Positions 14,226 through 22,195 of a DNA stretch of 64,000 bases are shown one piece after another (the first letter of the stretch is position 1; every line of letters starts with the position of its first letter). The stretch lies in assembly GCA_003221895.1 (NCBI GenBank), contig QHUJ01000119.1, positions 1-64,000 on the forward strand. The letters run 5' to 3'. Source of the DNA: Gemmatimonadota bacterium. GTDB lineage: Bacteria > Gemmatimonadota > Gemmatimonadetes > Gemmatimonadales > GWC2-71-9. The position numbers and the translations under genes are program-made. The notes below the pieces were generated by a model that had not been told where the DNA came from, searched no databases, and saw only the letters and a program-made list of their open reading frames with translations.

Positions 14226-15296
14226 TCAAATCGTCGCGCGTGCTCCGATGATCGCGTCGACCAGGGTATCGGCCTCGAACCGGACCGGGTCCGTGGCCGG
14301 CAGCCCCGTCTCGTCCGCGGCCCGCGCGACCGCCTCACGCGCAGCGGCTTCATCCATATCGTAGGTGTTGAGACAGATCCCGATCACCCTGGTCGGATGC
14401 ACGGGATGGGCGGCGCGTTCGTAGATGTCGATCATCTCGACGTACGACGGGATCTTCACCCATGGCTCGCGGCCGTGATAATCACCAATCCACTCCCGCG
14501 TCACTTGATGGCACAGGATCAGCGCGTCCGGGCAGGCGCCGTGGAGCAACCCGAGCGTGACGCCGGAGTAGCCGGGGTGAATCAAGCTTCCCTGCCCTTC
14601 GACGAGCACGATGTCGTTGTCCTTCGCTCCGTCCACCACGAGCTGCTCGGCCGCGCCGGCGATGAAGTCCGCCACGACCGCATCCACGGCGATACCCCAG
14701 CCTTCGATGAAGATGCCGGTCTGCCCCGTCGCCACGAAGCTCGTCTTGTGACCGCGCTTCACGAGCGCGTCGCGCAGCTGCAGTTGGGCGGTCATCTTGC
14801 CGACGTTGCAGTCGGTCCCGACGGCGAGCACGACGAGCGCGTCGACTTCGGCGGCGCGGCCGTCGGCGATCGGCAGATCGGGTGGCGGTTTGCGCGCATC
14901 GAGAATACGCACGCCGCGCGCGCGGGCGAGCGGTCCGAGGTCCGGGTCGTCACCGATGAACGTGTGCAGCCCGCTCCAGATCTCGAGCTTGCGCTCGATC
15001 GCGGTGCGCAGCCACGCCTTCCACTCCTCCGGCAACCGTCCCCCAGCCGGCGCGATCCCGATGAGGACCGCGGTCGCGCCTTTTCCCTGCGCGATGCCCC
15101 GCTCAAAATCGCCGACGACGGGGATGTTGCCGCCGAACCCCAGGATTTCCTGCGCCGTCTTCCCCGCCTGTTTGCGATCGAGCACGGCGACGATGCGTTC
15201 GGGGAAATAGCGAATGCACGAGTTGGCGGTCTTGGACGTGAGCGGTCCAAAATCGCCGTCGGCGATGATGAGGAAACGATGTTTCGGGGTGGTCAT
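14226..15296 (-). CDS. DUF1611 family P-loop protein (DgcN-like)
   Basis: 356 residues, two domains: an N-terminal Rossmann-like part (FLIIADGDFGPLTSKTANSC) and a C-terminal P-loop part with GTDCNVGKMTA and VLVEGQGSLIHPGYSG. Some DUF1611 members (DgcN) act with a racemase-like partner (DgcA) in D-glutamate use; no dgcA is next door here, so the substrate is open. The ATG at 15296 overlaps the previous stop (ATGA). Confidence 0.85.
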   Translation of the reverse strand: MTTPKHRFLIIADGDFGPLTSKTANSCIRYFPERIVAVLDRKQAGKTAQEILGFGGNIPVVGDFERGIAQGKGATAVLIGIAPAGGRLPEEWKAWLRTAIERKLEIWSGLHTFIGDDPDLGPLARARGVRILDARKPPPDLPIADGRAAEVDALVVLAVGTDCNVGKMTAQLQLRDALVKRGHKTSFVATGQTGIFIEGWGIAVDAVVADFIAGAAEQLVVDGAKDNDIVLVEGQGSLIHPGYSGVTLGLLHGACPDALILCHQVTREWIGDYHGREPWVKIPSYVEMIDIYERAAHPVHPTRVIGICLNTYDMDEAAAREAVARAADETGLPATDPVRFEADTLVDAIIGARATI

Positions 15297-16435
15297 GGTG
15301 CCGTCGTCACGACGCGGCGCCGCTCGACGCCGGTCCACGGCTCTGTTGGCTTCAGCACCGCGGGTTTCATCCGGCCGGGCTCACCATAGACCTCGCCGTG
15401 CAGGATGTGTCTGATCAAAACCATCGTGACGCACAGCACCGGTACGGCGACGATCAATCCGATGGGGCCGAGCAATGTTCCCATCACGAGGACGCTGGCG
15501 ATCGTCAGCACGGGCGGCAGCTCGACTTTGTGCTGCATGATGCGCGGCACCACGAGGTTCGCCTCGAAGACATGGACGAGAACGCCCAGGAGAATCACGA
15601 GCAGCACCTTCACCCAGTCTCCCGAGGCAACTACAAACAGCGCCGGCAACAGGGTCGATACCAGTGTCCCGAAGAAAGGCACGATCGCAACCAGCCCCGT
15701 GAAGATGCCGAACGCCAACCAGTAGGGCACGCCGAGAATCCACAGACCGACCGCGGTCAATGCGGCGAGGACCGCCATCGCGATGAGCTGTCCAACGACC
15801 CAGGCCCGCAATGTGGCCGCCGCGTCGTCGAACACACGCATCGCGATCGCGCGATGGCGCGGCGAGAACAGCGAGATCAGGCCGTCACGATATTGCGCGG
15901 GCTGGCGCGCGAGGTAGAGCGCCATCACCACGACGCTCGCGCCCTCGATGAACAGCATCCCCCCCCCGCGCACGTAGCCGAGAATCGAGCCGCTCAGAAA
16001 CCCGACGGAATCGGAGACGAGTCCCGACACCACGCCGGACGAGGGATTCGCGAGGTCGGTCTGATCGAGGACGGGGTACTGGCTGGCCCAGCGCGCCAGC
16101 ACGTTCTGAATGTTGCTGAGCGTCTGGGGCAATCCGCCAATGAGCGCGCGCGTCTGCTCGATAACCGGGGGAAGCAGCAGCACGCCGATTCCGGTGACCC
16201 CCGCAAGCGTCGCGATGACCGCCTCCGTGAGGCCAAGCCACCGCTTCGTCCCGAAACGCCGCTCCATCAGGTCCGTGACGGCGGAGAGGTACACCGCCAG
16301 CAGGGTGGCGAGGAAGACCAGCAACAGCACGTCGATGACCCGAAGAATGAACCAGACGACGAGGGCCGCAACGAAGAGCGCCACAACTGTGGCGCTCGAC
16401 ACCCTAGTGGAGGAGGGAGTCTCGGGCTTGTTCAG
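15293..16435 (-). CDS. AI-2E family (PerM-like) membrane protein, probable CTG start
   Basis: Polytopic inner-membrane permease of the AI-2E/PerM family, about eight helices. Visible family traits are an N-terminal helix pair, a long periplasmic stretch around residues 90-140, and the C-terminal FGIFTGLVAIVPFFGTLV and LLGPIGLIVAVPV blocks. The nearest standard start is GTG 16402, without a ribosome site. A CTG at 16435 overlaps the pspA stop as CTGA, has AGGAG eight bases upstream and gives the N-terminus MNKPETPSSTRVSSAT; it is preferred (380 residues). Being coupled to pspA suggests a membrane-stress context. Confidence 0.88.
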   Translation of the reverse strand: MNKPETPSSTRVSSATVVALFVAALVVWFILRVIDVLLLVFLATLLAVYLSAVTDLMERRFGTKRWLGLTEAVIATLAGVTGIGVLLLPPVIEQTRALIGGLPQTLSNIQNVLARWASQYPVLDQTDLANPSSGVVSGLVSDSVGFLSGSILGYVRGGGMLFIEGASVVVMALYLARQPAQYRDGLISLFSPRHRAIAMRVFDDAAATLRAWVVGQLIAMAVLAALTAVGLWILGVPYWLAFGIFTGLVAIVPFFGTLVSTLLPALFVVASGDWVKVLLVILLGVLVHVFEANLVVPRIMQHKVELPPVLTIASVLVMGTLLGPIGLIVAVPVLCVTMVLIRHILHGEVYGEPGRMKPAVLKPTEPWTGVERRRVVTTAP

Positions 16436-17196
16436 CTTTTCTGCTCCTGTTCCTCGTCGTCGAGCAGCTCGGCATCCTTCGCGCCTTTGCCGAGCGCCCG
16501 CGCTTCTGCCTGCGTGCCGCCCGGCAGCAGGCCCATCTTCTGCTTCAGCGCGAGCAGCTGTTGATCGGCGTCTGCCTTCACTTCGAGTCCCTGAAACTGC
16601 TTGATGAGGGAGTCGCCCGACAGATCCTCGTTGACTTCAGCCGCGGCGATGAGCTTGCGCTCTTCGTGCTCGATCTGCTCGGCCATGCGCTCGAACGTCT
16701 CGAACGCGCTCTTGTCGGAGATCGATCCCAGCGTCTCCTGAATGCGCTTGTGCGCCTCGGCCCGCTTCTGCCGCGCGATGAGGATGTTCTTCTTGCGCTT
16801 CGCTTCCTCGATCTTGTCGTTGAGCTGACGGAGCGACGCCTTGAGCTTCTCGGTTTCTTCGCGGTGCTTGATCCACGTTTCCTGCAGCTGCACCGCGCCC
16901 TGCACGTGCTCGTTGTAACGCAGCAACGCCTGCTTGGCGAGATCGTCGCGGCCTTCCTGCACCGCGAGCACGGCGCGCTTCTCCCAGTCCTCGGAGAGCT
17001 TCTTCTCCTGCTCGGCCTGCGCCGACAGGCGCTTTTCGTCGGCGATCGCGGACGCCACCTGCTGCTTGGCCCTCGCCAGCTGGGTCCGCATGTCGACGAT
17101 GAGTTGTTCGAGAACCTTTTGCGGATTCTCCGCGCGCGAGATCAGGTCGTTGATGTTCGACCGGATCAGCGTGGACAGACGATCAATGATCCCCAT
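16432..17196 (-). CDS. pspA: PspA/IM30 (ESCRT-III-like) membrane-stress protein
   Basis: 254-residue peripheral membrane protein that oligomerizes on stressed inner membrane. Almost wholly helical: amphipathic N-terminus MGIIDRLSTLIRSNINDLI, then long coiled-coil helices to about residue 220 and an acidic tail (DDEEQEQKS). The ATG at 17196 directly follows the TAG of the neighbouring small membrane gene. It is last after six PspB-like genes; no pspF or pspC was recognised here. Confidence 0.95.
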   Translation of the reverse strand: MGIIDRLSTLIRSNINDLISRAENPQKVLEQLIVDMRTQLARAKQQVASAIADEKRLSAQAEQEKKLSEDWEKRAVLAVQEGRDDLAKQALLRYNEHVQGAVQLQETWIKHREETEKLKASLRQLNDKIEEAKRKKNILIARQKRAEAHKRIQETLGSISDKSAFETFERMAEQIEHEERKLIAAAEVNEDLSGDSLIKQFQGLEVKADADQQLLALKQKMGLLPGGTQAEARALGKGAKDAELLDDEEQEQKS

Positions 17197-17547
17197 CTAG
17201 GCTCCTGGCAATGAGCGCTCGCGCTTTTGCGCGAGCAGCCGCTCCGCAAAATCTAGCCGCTCGGCCATCTCGGCAATCTGTCCCTGCATCTCCGTCACTC
17301 TGTGCTCCAGCTCGGCCACGTGCTCGGTGTCGACCGCGGCCCCCTCGATCGGCGTGTCGCTCCACTTCCTCCGCCGATGGATGCCGGCGCGAATCCGTTC
17401 GGCGATCGCCGATACGAGATCCGACTTGAAGAACGCGTACAACACGACGCCCGCCACAACCATCCCCCCGATCATCCCGATCAGCGGAATGAGTTGATTC
17501 GGGTCAAACGGAATCATCGGCGGCGGCGCTGGTCCTTGCAAAACCAC
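17197..17547 (-). CDS. PspB-like small membrane protein, copy 6 (next to pspA)
   Basis: 116 residues: one N-terminal helix (LIPLIGMIGGMVVAGVVLYAFF), a basic segment (ERIRAGIHRRRK), a coiled coil, then the shared motif ERLDFAERLLAQK. GTG start 17547 with GGAG six bases upstream. The longest of the six paralogues, with an extra N-terminal Pro-rich stretch. Topology matches PspB (one helix plus leucine-zipper-like tail). Function is inferred from pspA adjacency only. Confidence 0.82.
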   Translation of the reverse strand: MVLQGPAPPPMIPFDPNQLIPLIGMIGGMVVAGVVLYAFFKSDLVSAIAERIRAGIHRRRKWSDTPIEGAAVDTEHVAELEHRVTEMQGQIAEMAERLDFAERLLAQKRERSLPGA

Positions 17548-17580
17548 GTGCTCTCCTACGCCAAGGATGGATCGCCCGTT

Positions 17581-17853
17581 TCAGCGGGCAACGTCCCGGT
17601 CCTGGCTCGTCGACTTCGCGAGCAGGCGTTCGGTAAAATCTACACGCTCCGCCAGTTCCGCCACTTCCCGGCGTAATTGCTCCACGTTTTCCAGCAGCTC
17701 GGCATTCTCCTCGCCCGACCCCCCGCGCGGTGTCGGTCCATGGCGGAGGCGATCAGCGAGCGCCTGCCCTAGCGGCGAGCGAGCCAAGAGCAGGGAAAAG
17801 ACACCTAACATCGCTATCACAGGTATGAAGACCCCGACCATACCGGGATTCAT
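17581..17853 (-). CDS. PspB-like small membrane protein, copy 5
   Basis: 90 residues. Starts MNPGMVGVFIPVIAML, one transmembrane helix, then PLGQALADRLRHG, a coiled coil and the shared ERVDFTERLLAKS motif. ATG 17853 overlaps the preceding stop as ATGA. Same layout as its neighbours, but sequence identity is low outside the motif, so the duplications look old. Confidence 0.82.
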   Translation of the reverse strand: MNPGMVGVFIPVIAMLGVFSLLLARSPLGQALADRLRHGPTPRGGSGEENAELLENVEQLRREVAELAERVDFTERLLAKSTSQDRDVAR

Positions 17854-18104
17854 GGGGGCAGCCGTCCTCCCTCATTCTGCTTGGCGAGCAGCCGTTCCGC
17901 GAAATCCATGCGCTCCGCCAGCTCTGTCAGCTCCTCGCGCACCCGCTGCAGCTCGTCGAGAATCTCGTCGCGCTCGGCCGGCTCGATCCCCGGTCGCCGG
18001 TGCTCGCCGGCGATGCGCTTCGCGATCGCTGCAGCCACCGGCCGGATCACCCAGAACCCGCCGCCAAAGATGAGAAAGATCGCCGCGCCTTCTGAGGGGC
18101 TCAC
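17850..18104 (-). CDS. PspB-like small membrane protein, copy 4
   Basis: 84 residues. N-terminal helix (GAAIFLIFGGGFWVI), then AAAIAKRIAGEHRR, an acidic coiled coil and ERMDFAERLLAKQ. GTG 18104 overlaps the previous stop as GTGA. Part of the six-gene array ending in pspA. Confidence 0.82.
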   Translation of the reverse strand: MSPSEGAAIFLIFGGGFWVIRPVAAAIAKRIAGEHRRPGIEPAERDEILDELQRVREELTELAERMDFAERLLAKQNEGGRLPP

Positions 18105-18349
18105 CGCTGTTCCGTTTTTCTCGCGAGCAGGCGCTCGGTGAAGTCAATGCGCTCGTTCAGATCGCCGAGTTCGCGGCGGGTTTGCTGCAGCTCGGCGAGC
18201 AGGTCTTCACGCAGCGCTTGCAACTCCTCCCGCACACCGGCATCCGCGCGCGGGCGAATCCGCTCCGCCAGCGCACGGATGAGCGGGAACAAAATCACGA
18301 CGGCGCCGGCGACCACCGCCATCAGCGCGAATACCGAGCCGCGATCCAC
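18101..18349 (-). CDS. PspB-like small membrane protein, copy 3
   Basis: 82 residues, GTG start. Helix VFALMAVVAGAVVILFPLI, then RALAERIRPRADAG, a heptad-rich coiled coil and ERIDFTERLLARK. Closest in sequence to copy 2 (both have PLIRA-x-AERIR-x-RAD). Two bases separate it from the preceding stop. Confidence 0.82.
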   Translation of the reverse strand: MDRGSVFALMAVVAGAVVILFPLIRALAERIRPRADAGVREELQALREDLLAELQQTRRELGDLNERIDFTERLLARKTEQR

Positions 18350-18351
18350 GG

Positions 18352-18621
18352 CTATCGCGCCGGCGGAAGCCGCTCGGCTTCCCGCTGCTTCGCTACCAAG
18401 CGTTCCAGAAAATCAACGCGCTCGCTCAGCTCCGCGATCTCGTGATCCGTTTGCTGCGCCTTTTGCACCACATCCTCGCGAACGCCCTGCAACTCGTCGT
18501 GGACGCCGGAATCCGCGCGCCCACGGATTCGCTCGGCAAACGCCCGGATCAGCGGGTATAGCAGGATGCAGCCCCCGACGATCGACAAAGCCGTGAGAAA
18601 CACGACCGCTTCGGATGGCAT
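18352..18621 (-). CDS. PspB-like small membrane protein, copy 2
   Basis: 89 residues from ATG 18621, in a TGATG junction with the preceding stop (an in-frame TTG lies one codon earlier). Helix VVFLTALSIVGGCILLYPLI, RAFAERIRGRADSG, a coiled coil and ERVDFLERLVAKQ. Ends ERLPPAR, as copy 1 ends ERLAPPGAR. Confidence 0.82.
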   Translation of the reverse strand: MPSEAVVFLTALSIVGGCILLYPLIRAFAERIRGRADSGVHDELQGVREDVVQKAQQTDHEIAELSERVDFLERLVAKQREAERLPPAR

Positions 18622-18923
18622 CAACGAGCTCCCGGCGGCGCCAGCCGCTCGGATTGCCGCTGTTTCGCGACCAACCGCTCCAGGAAGTCCACGCGCTCAC
18701 CCAGCTCACTGACCTGCTGCTCGACGTGTCGTAGCTCGTCGACTTCACGGCGCAGGTCCCGCACGTCCTCCGCGGTTTCCTCATCGGCGCCCGTCGCGGA
18801 CTTCTTGCCGAGAATCCGCGCCGCGATCGCCTTACCGATCGGAGTGATCGAAAACAGAATGGCGCCGCCACCCCCAAAGATCAGGACTACAGCCGCGAAC
18901 GGGATGATGTCGTCGGGATTCAG
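18621..18923 (-). CDS. PspB-like small membrane protein, copy 1, probable CTG start
   Basis: 100 residues if started at CTG 18923, which has a perfect AAGGAG six bases upstream. The N-terminus (M)NPDDIIPFAAVVLIF then lines up with copy 5 (MNPGMVGVF). The alternative TTG 18947 has no spacing to a ribosome site. One helix, AAARILGKK, a longer coiled coil and the shared ERVDFLERLVAKQ. It follows uvrA by 32 bases. Confidence 0.8.
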   Translation of the reverse strand: MNPDDIIPFAAVVLIFGGGGAILFSITPIGKAIAARILGKKSATGADEETAEDVRDLRREVDELRHVEQQVSELGERVDFLERLVAKQRQSERLAPPGAR

Positions 18924-18955: not shown

Positions 18956-21805
18956 CTAGTCCCCTGCCTGCAACACCTTCCGCAGGAACGGGCCGGTGTG
19001 CGATGAGCCGGACCGCGCCACCTTCTCCGGCGGACCTTCCGCCACCACGCGTCCACCCAGCTCGCCCCCCTCGGGGCCGAGGTCGATCACCCAGTCGGCC
19101 GTCTTGATGACGTCCAGATTGTGCTCGATGACGACGACGGTGTTGCCCTTATCCACCAACCGGTGGAGCACCTCGAGCAGCAGGCGCACGTCCTCGAAAT
19201 GCAGACCGGTCGTCGGCTCATCGAGGATATACAACGTGCGACCCGTATCGCGTTTGGCGAGCTCGGTCGCGAGTTTGACGCGCTGCGCTTCGCCGCCCGA
19301 CAGGGTCGTCGCCGACTGGCCAAGGTGGATGTATCCCAGACCTACGTCGTTGAGCAACTCCAGTTTCGCCCTGATGCGCGGTTGATGCTCGAAGAAATCG
19401 AGCGCGTCGGCGACGGTCAGATCGAGCACATCGGCGATCGACTTTCCCTTATAGCGGACCTCGAGCGTCTCGCGGTTGTAGCGCCGGCCCTTGCAGACCT
19501 CGCACGGGACGTAGACGTCGGGCAGGAAGTGCATCTCCACCTTCACCAGGCCGTCGCCCTGACACGCCTCGCACCGGCCCCCTTTGACGTTGAAGGAAAA
19601 GCGCCCGGGCCCATAGCCACGCAGCTTCGATTCGGGGAGGTAGGTGAACAGCTCCCGGATGGGCGTGAACAGCCCCGTGTAGGTCGCGGGGTTGGAGCGC
19701 GGCGTCCGGCCGATGGGGCTCTGGTCGATGTCGATCACCTTGTCGATGTAATCGAGTCCCTCGATCCGGTCGTGCACTCCCGGGACGACTTTGGCGCGAT
19801 AGAAGTGCCGCGCCAGCGCCTGATACAGGATGTCGGTGACGAGCGTCGATTTGCCGGATCCCGACACGCCGGTCACCGCGGTAAAGAGCCCGAGAGGGAA
19901 TTCGACGGTCAGGTTCTTGAGATTATGGTGGCGCGCGCCGACGACGCGCAGCAGCCGATCGGCATGGGCGATGCGGCGACGCGGTGGAACAGGGATCCGG
20001 AGCTCGCCGCGCAGATAGCGCGCGGTGAGTGAGTCGCGGTGCCGCAGCACCTCGTCGAGCGGTCCGGCCGCCACGACCTCGCCCCCATGACGGCCCGCGC
20101 GCGGACCGAGATCCACGACGTAATCCGCGGAGCGAATCGTCTCTTCATCGTGCTCTACGACAAGCACCGTGTTGCCCAGATCGCGCAGCTCCTTCAACGT
20201 CGCCAGCAGGCGCGCATTGTCGCGCTGGTGCAGCCCGATCGAGGGCTCGTCGAGGATGTAGAGCACGCCGACCAGCCGGCTGCCGATCTGCGTCGCGAGC
20301 CGAATCCGTTGGGCCTCGCCGCCCGAGAGGGTCGCCGCGGAACGGTCCAGGGTGAGGTAATCGAGGCCGACGTCTACGAGAAAGCGCAGCCGGTCCACGA
20401 CTTCCTTGAGGATCGGTTGCGCGATCTCGGGATCGAGTCCCACGCGGCCATTGCTGCGCAGCGGGATCCGTGAGAAGAATTCGAGCGCCTCGCGCACCGG
20501 CAGCGCGACGACGTCGCCGATGCTCTTGCCGGCCACGAGGACGGACAGGCTCTCCGGCTTGAGGCGCCGGCCCCCGCAGGTCGGACAGGGCTGCTCCACC
20601 ATGTACTGCTCGAGCTGCTCGCGGATTGCGTCTGACGACGTTTCGCGATAGCGCTTTTCGACGTGATCGAGTACGCCTTTCCAACCCGACTCGTACGACC
20701 CATGCCAGCGTTCGCTGTCGTACTGATACGTGATCGTTTTGCCGGGTGCGCCCTTCAGCAGAATCTTCTGCACGGCCGGCGACAAGTCGCGCCACGCCGT
20801 ATTGAGATCGAACTTGTAGGCGCGCGCCAGCGCCGGGAGGACCACCTTCCGCAGATAGCCGCTCGGCTCACCCCAGGGCAGCACCACGCCCTCAAGAATT
20901 GAGAGGCTGTGATCGCCGAGCACGAGATCCTCGTTGACTTCGCGCCGCGTCCCCAATCCCGAGCAGTCCGGACACGCGCCGTACGGGGAGTTGAAGGAGA
21001 ACTGTCGCGGCTCGAGCTCCGGCAGTGACAGGCCGCACTTGGGACAGGCGTAGCGCTCGGAGAATAGTCGCGACCGCGGGCTCCCGGTCTGTCGTACGAC
21101 TTCCACAACGCCCTCGGCCGCCTTGAGCGCGGTCTCGATCGAATCCGCAAGCCGGCCGCGATCGGCGGGACGCACCACCAGCCGGTCGACCACCACCGCG
21201 ATGTCGTGATTCTGACGGCGGTTCAGCTTCGGAACGTCGGAGAGGTCGTACGTCTCGCCGTTGATGCGCGCGCGCACGAACCCCTGTTTGCGCATCGCCT
21301 CAAAGACGTCGCGGAACTCACCCTTTCGGCCACGAACCAGCGGGGCGAGGACCTCAATCTTGGTACCCTCCGGCCAGTCGAGCACCAGGTCTGTGATCTG
21401 CGACGCCGACTGCCGCTCCACCGGTGACCCATCGTTAGGGCAATGCGGGGTACCCGTGCGAGCCCACAGCAGGCGGAGATAGTCGTAGACCTCGGTGATC
21501 GTGCCGACGGTCGAGCGGGGATTCGCGCCGGCGGTCTTCTGCTCGATGGAAATCGCCGGAGAGAGGCCCTCGATGGCATCGACATCGGGCTTGTCCATGA
21601 GACCGAGGAACTGACGCGCATAAGCGGAGAGCGATTCGACGTAGCGACGCTGCCCCTCAGCGTAGATCGTGTCGAATGCCAGCGACGACTTGCCCGATCC
21701 GGACAGCCCCGTGATCACGACCAGGGCATTCCTGGGCAGCTCGACGTCGATGTTCTTGAGATTGTGTTCGCGTGCTCCGCGAACGATGAGGGCGTCACCC
21801 GGCAT
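18956..21805 (-). CDS. uvrA: Excinuclease ABC subunit A
   Basis: Damage-recognition ATPase of nucleotide excision repair, 949 residues. Two ABC modules: Walker [10 protein letters not shown] at 33-41 and a second GVSGSGKST, two LSGGEAQR signatures, and Walker [10 protein letters not shown] and LDEPTTGLH. Zinc modules CPKCG...CPDC and CEAC...CEVC are intact. The start ATG 21805 gives [18 protein letters not shown]; upstream open frame does not look coding. A TTGACC-N18-TAGGCT promoter ends eight bases before the ATG, suggesting a leaderless mRNA. Confidence 0.98.
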
Positions 21806-21813
21806 AGACCCGT

Positions 21814-21843
21814 AGCCTAGACCGGCCAATGGCTTGCGGTCAA
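21814..21843 (-). promoter_or_regulatory. uvrA promoter, leaderless arrangement
   Basis: Minus strand TTGACC (21838-21843), an 18-base spacer and TAGGCT (21814-21819), then eight bases to the ATG. The transcript would begin at or within about two bases of the start codon. No SOS (LexA) box was recognised. Confidence 0.55.
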
Positions 21844-21861
21844 CTCTCCACTTTCCTACGT

Positions 21862-21867
21862 TAGCAT
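21862..21867 (+). promoter_or_regulatory. Candidate -10 box (TAGCAT) seven bases before cutA
   Basis: TAGCAT lies seven bases before the cutA ATG, with no Shine-Dalgarno site between. The -35 region is weak. It overlaps the upstream side of the divergent uvrA promoter. Confidence 0.45.
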
Positions 21868-21874
21868 CCCTCAA

Positions 21875-22195
21875 ATGGCCACGGATGCGCTGGTCGTCCT
21901 GACGACGCTCGGATCCACCGGCGACGCGCGAACGCTGGTCCGCGGCCTGGTCGAAGAGCGCCTCGTCGCCTGCGGCACCGTGCTGCCGGCTGCGTCGATC
22001 TATCGGTGGGAGGGCGCCGTACATGAGGAAGAGGAGGTTGTGGTCTTGCTGAAAACCGATGCCTCCAAATGGGATGCGCTGGCCGCTGCCGTGCACGAGC
22101 GGCATCCCTATAAAGTTCCTGAGCTGCTCGCGTTCCCTGCCGAGGCAGGCTCCCCAGCGTACCTGTCATGGTTGAAGGGGTCGGTGGCGCCATGA
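21875..22195 (+). CDS. cutA: CutA1 divalent-ion tolerance protein
   Basis: 106-residue trimeric PII-like fold protein linked to copper/divalent cation tolerance, exact role unsettled. Visible: [23 protein letters not shown] (family core) and the [14 protein letters not shown] motif. First gene of a six-gene plus-strand operon; its stop overlaps the next start (ATGA). Confidence 0.95.

Follow-up and report, generated by a model that had tools for sequence, protein, structure and literature searches.

A tandem array of small PspB-like proteins with a predicted membrane helix upstream of pspA in Gemmatimonadota

Directly upstream of pspA in a Gemmatimonadota genome we found six consecutive minus-strand genes of 82-116 codons each, which form one paralogous family, here called the S family (PspB-like array family). 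The window analysed is the whole stretch of 64,000 nucleotides at positions 1 to 64,000 of contig QHUJ01000119.1 (assembly GCA_003221895.1). How PspA, a bacterial relative of ESCRT-III, is recruited to damaged membranes outside the Proteobacteria is poorly known. The locus described here is widespread and encodes one to eleven PspB-like subunits before pspA, usually with no PspC. It represents a natural copy-number series, which could test whether membrane-anchored coils steer PspA. The S family is a protein family not mentioned in the Psp surveys examined. Open-access literature on PspB with Gemmatimonadota and on PspB paralogues or duplicates yielded only a remark on PspB duplicates. No earlier description of such an array was found there, in agreement with the sequence-only reading of this DNA, although such an absence is no proof.

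The six-gene array and its proteins

The array is followed on the same strand by pspA, an AI-2E permease gene and a DUF1611 gene (Table 1). The sequence-only reading had described six small tandem genes leading with overlaps or tiny gaps into pspA, and this was borne out by coordinates, junctions and profile searches alike. Of the span 16432-18923 given there for the array, the upper end falls on the probable start codon of the first gene, but 16432 is the end of pspA and not of the array. The true start of g1 is probably the CTG codon at 18921-18923 because relatives carry start codons at the same place (TTG, ATG, GTG and GTG in L028, L029, L041 and L071, respectively). In the window, sigma-54 promoter-like sites were no more frequent than expected by chance and none lay close to the array; a search for sigma-70 promoters gave no site on the coding strand.

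Table 1. Features of the array locus in the window, in transcription order.
Feature	Coordinates	Strand	Length	Junction with next gene	Remarks
uvrA	18956..22105	-			conserved neighbour upstream of array
g1	18621..18923	-	100 aa	TGATG overlap	probable CTG start at 18923 behind AAGGAG; first in transcription order
g2	18352..18621	-	89 aa	2-base gap	closest paralogue g3, 52% identity
g3	18101..18349	-	82 aa	GTGA overlap	
g4	17850..18104	-	84 aa	ATGA overlap	
g5	17581..17853	-	90 aa	33-base gap	
g6	17197..17547	-	116 aa	TAG/ATG, pspA start codon directly after g6 stop	GTG start behind AGGAG; alternative ATG at 17517; adjoins pspA
pspA	16432..17196	-	254 aa	29-base gap	PF04012, 150.1 bits, 9.1e-44, above cut-off
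AI-2E family transporter	15293..16402	-			PF01594, 7.5e-53; conserved neighbour
DUF1611 protein	14226..15338	-			PF07755, 2.6e-75; conserved neighbour

A profile built from any five of the genes recovered the sixth at E values of 1e-13 to 1e-24 and no other among the 1068 ORFs of the window, and a profile of 114 relatives that included no window sequence recovered these six again, with E values of 1e-21 to 1e-26. Since both approaches recovered exactly these six, the family does not result from chance. In the alignment the C-terminal end ER-x-DF-x-ERL-x-A was invariant in all six proteins, as the sequence-only reading had noted for a near-identical end, and the basic stretch contained an invariant A-x-A-x-R.

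The PspB-like topology proposed earlier was likewise supported by prediction. From sequence and AlphaFold, the proteins are predicted to consist of an N-terminal membrane helix, a basic stretch and a C-terminal coil; the g2 protein was modelled as one helix over residues 4-84 (pLDDT 93.6). Hydrophobic residues of the coil follow a/d spacing. The most conserved residues of the consensus (E62, E65, R66, D68, F69, E71 and R72) lie mainly opposite this hydrophobic face, at about 160 degrees. An exposed face conserved in this way points to a partner that the proteins share.

Within the genus each of the six genes has its own orthologue in L071 and L041 with 60-80% identity, versus about 40% to most of the others; between g2 and g3 the identity is higher. 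Gene order is the same in both congeners apart from an exchange of g2 and g3 in L041, and the congener loci L028 and L029 hold five genes each. The most conserved copy in the genus is g6 (77-89% identity over 105 residues), whose best match was the last array gene in 9 of 12 further loci examined. Labels of position (first, middle, last) were strongly conserved within the genus and mildly over the whole set. The dN/dS values against congeners were about 0.1-0.3 for all six genes, which are rough values because several of the genes approach saturation at synonymous sites, and about 0.05 for pspA. By this measure the six genes are under purifying selection within the genus.

Distribution and history of the locus

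S-family matches were found in 130 of 150 genomes of the phylum, with 2-17 copies per genome in the window's own family f1 and none in the six genomes sampled from f9, the most distant group. The genome of the window encodes twelve copies, six in the array and six scattered. We fetched 79 named loci, 69 of them multi-copy and 10 single-copy. The pspA gene was present on the fetched stretch in 61 of the 69 multi-copy loci, and the other 8 arrays lie near the end of the retrieved stretch; none of the 10 single-copy loci had pspA in view. Including the window, 62 loci carried the array directly upstream of pspA, so that the gene-neighbourhood survey suggested earlier showed the array to be kept in relatives. 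Where uvrA was in view as well (56 loci), arrays comprised 2-8 copies with a median of 4; among the remaining loci they reached 11 (L064). Intergenic gaps within arrays had a median of 17 bases; the automatic gene call produced a few wrong starts, visible as impossible negative gaps, which left this picture unchanged. Three MAG records that consist of a single chromosome (L045, L050 and L063) contained arrays of 5, 5 and 6 genes, and an assembly error is therefore an unlikely cause. No relative of the S family was found in plasmid records.

In the sister family f2, ten genomes kept pspA. In most of them CesT/Tir, AI-2E or DUF1611 genes were its neighbours, uvrA stood there where it was in view, and no array was found in the loci inspected. 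PspA therefore works without the array in this group, which has the same locus. The distant genome G083 encodes uvrA, one S gene, CesT/Tir and pspA in this order, and the single copy at the same place suggests a tandem expansion. The simplest account of these sequences would be one ancestral S gene between uvrA and pspA, with a later loss in f2 and an expansion in f1 and f3. In five f2 loci (L171, L174, L177, L178 and L179) uvrA and the pspA cluster are separated by genes for serine dehydratase beta and alpha.

Some relatives carry the CesT/Tir-like (DUF2170) gene between array and pspA; the locus in the window is without it. A CesT/Tir (DUF2170, YjfI)-PspA dyad was described by Ravi et al. 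(PMC11237479). This dyad stands at the end of many array loci, whereas in its published form it comes without an array of coiled-coil membrane proteins (PMC11237479).

S-family genes also occur away from pspA. In the window's own genome these were L107 6467-7175, L108 5224-5487, L109 2388-2627, L110 about 1-300 and L111 5083-5319, and further such copies were seen in L093-L105. A subfamily beginning IPSWALGVGVII recurs across genomes as single genes away from pspA. In the sister family, S-like genes with a EVERISEGQRFTTKLLSE end form separate small arrays (L220 3299-7104 in G164; L197 in G149), and that of G164 is flanked by genes for a histidine kinase on one side and a sigma-54 response regulator on the other. 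In two different families, S-family genes have a histidine kinase gene and a divergent UPF0047 (YjbQ) gene as neighbours (L105 2852-5243; L220 5570-7664).

Resemblance to PspB

Like PspB of E. coli and Yersinia (TIGR02976, PF06667), S proteins are small and are predicted to have one N-terminal membrane helix, a basic stretch and a leucine-zipper-like coil. They are also encoded beside pspA and show a weak but specific profile match over most of their length. The relation to PspB put forward in the sequence-only reading was upheld in part. Two outcomes that it had named as refuting, a lack of profile similarity and an array that relatives do not keep beside pspA, did not occur. The PF06667 search proposed with it gave no match for any of the six proteins (cut-off 25.6 bits). 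TIGR02976 (cut-off 51.7 bits) scored 9-18.5 bits for five of the six, and all matches stayed below cut-off when the six alone were scanned against Pfam and NCBIfam. None of the 150 phylum genomes contained a protein above the TIGR02976 cut-off. Formally, the family lies outside PspB as curated.

Of 120 diverse members, 57 matched TIGR02976 with E<=1, the best of them at 4.1e-5, and 19 matched the next NCBIfam family. The top match of a PspB-profile search in the 150 genomes (E 8.3e-6) was an array member beside pspA in G022, aligned over positions 3-68 of 75. A comparison of the family with the single E. coli PspB sequence by hhalign was weak and shifted in register (probability 40%), and that with the single E. 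coli PspC sequence was not significant. PspB sequences obtained from plasmid records were nearly all close enterobacterial ones. A PDB profile search returned generic coiled-coil and membrane-helix matches alone.

The PspB likeness might be a convergence of short membrane-anchored coiled coils, in which case the family would be unrelated to Psp and would have a function of its own beside pspA. Low similarity (the highest PspB-profile score was 28.3 bits), the weak matches also obtained to GspM, CcmI and SlyX, and an ERxDFxER stripe that E. coli PspB does not have would all fit such an origin. We nevertheless consider it improbable. Permuting the columns of the coil within heptad phase and shuffling the membrane segment, which keeps composition, lowered the number of TIGR02976 matches among the same proteins from 23/40 to 1/40 (Fisher p=4e-8), and the placement beside pspA is conserved. 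We conclude that the resemblance to PspB is specific but distant, and that it probably reflects homology.

Unlike PspB, the family scores below curated cut-offs, lacks a DAEHPNW-type C-terminal end and has an invariant exposed ERxDFxER stripe. The E. coli end ESILDAEHPNWRDR is absent, and S proteins end in ERLDFAERLLAxxR. E. coli PspB has the ER and E of the stripe and is without DF and the second R; the exposed conserved stripe is new relative to PspB. PspB is reported to be rare outside Proteobacteria (PMC11237479). It is encoded once or rarely in duplicate, in contrast to the family's 2-11 tandem copies upstream of pspA with no pspC. Ravi et al. 2024 remarked on PspB duplicates in psp operons, for example AOL22920.1 (PMC11237479). 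These resemble the S arrays in having more than one copy beside pspA, but they are duplicates only and belong to operons of the pspABC type, whereas S arrays have up to eleven genes, occur in Gemmatimonadota and are usually without PspC. The C-terminal zipper of E. coli PspC, which is required for contact with PspA, shares with the S family an R-L-x-x-x-E-R at its end (PMC3068692). S proteins differ from PspC, and from PspC fused to a divergent PspB, in being separate, small and without a PspC domain (PMC3068692, PMC11237479).

Possible function beside PspA

We give an even chance to the reading that the six genes encode divergent, PspC-independent, PspB-like adaptors which assemble into mixed coiled-coil oligomers and in this form anchor PspA or tune it. 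One gene between uvrA and pspA would have been duplicated in tandem and its copies kept as distinct subunits. Each protein would be a single long helix, running from the N-terminal membrane part through the basic stretch to an end that makes up the coiled coil. Through their hydrophobic a/d face the coils would pair with each other, giving homo- or hetero-oligomers at the inner membrane. A cytoplasmic partner common to all of them, most probably PspA, might bind the invariant exposed stripe E..ER.DF.ER. Membrane helices could then sense changes, and PspA polymerisation might be recruited or metered at the membrane without PspC. Differing N-terminal halves combined with one shared binding stripe could bring several inputs onto one PspA. 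The S-like genes next to a histidine kinase and a sigma-54 response regulator, or to pspC, count in favour of this reading. The array-less f2 loci, the PspB scores below cut-off, the weak hhalign result and the missing PspB end count against it.

PspB of E. coli self-associates and binds PspC, and has no direct contact with PspA (PMC3068692). PspC (PF04024) had no match in the genome of the window, which has 97% completeness. A direct contact between S proteins and PspA, as proposed here, would depart from the behaviour of E. coli PspB. That mixed oligomers are tuned to different membrane stresses, as hypothesized in the sequence-only reading, is compatible with the retention of diverged orthologues, which is no proof of it. 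A stronger version is rather unlikely in its full form: PspC-free, distinct coiled-coil subunits of variable copy number, in which the composition of the mixed oligomer would set the kind of membrane disturbance by which the PspA polymer is recruited, nucleated or capped. If true, the locus would be a combinatorial sensor array for this ESCRT-III relative.

S proteins might also be PspB-type regulators that act through an unrecognised PspC-like partner, so that contact with PspA would be indirect as in E. coli. PspB being the best profile match agrees with this, as does an S-like gene shortly after pspC in G041; the S-like domain encoded there, just downstream of pspC, has an N-terminal extension (L219 3982-4964). 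Several findings make such a partner unlikely. PspC was found in 7 of 61 relatives and was absent from 54, most of them array-bearing, in addition to its absence from the window's genome. No conserved unassigned gene lies between array and pspA in the window. A PspF equivalogue was not found above its cut-off, and matches were obtained for 12 other sigma-54 activators.

Alternatively, the proteins could serve the membrane or the AI-2E permease, as scaffold, lipid-domain proteins or transporter subunits, and be merely co-transcribed with pspA. An AI-2E gene follows pspA in many array loci, and the additional S copies away from pspA would also be explained. We assign a low probability to this role, as L054, L056, L067, L087 and L096 hold the array, pspA and DUF1611 with no AI-2E match between the latter two, and loci without an array keep AI-2E too.

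The adaptor reading is also preferred over copy-number drift, i.e. redundant tandem duplicates retained by chance or dosage, which would fit the 2 to 11 copies among relatives but is highly unlikely given the one-to-one orthologues, nearly fixed order and purifying selection within the genus, and given a median identity within loci that equals that between loci (38%) and therefore argues against recent homogenisation.
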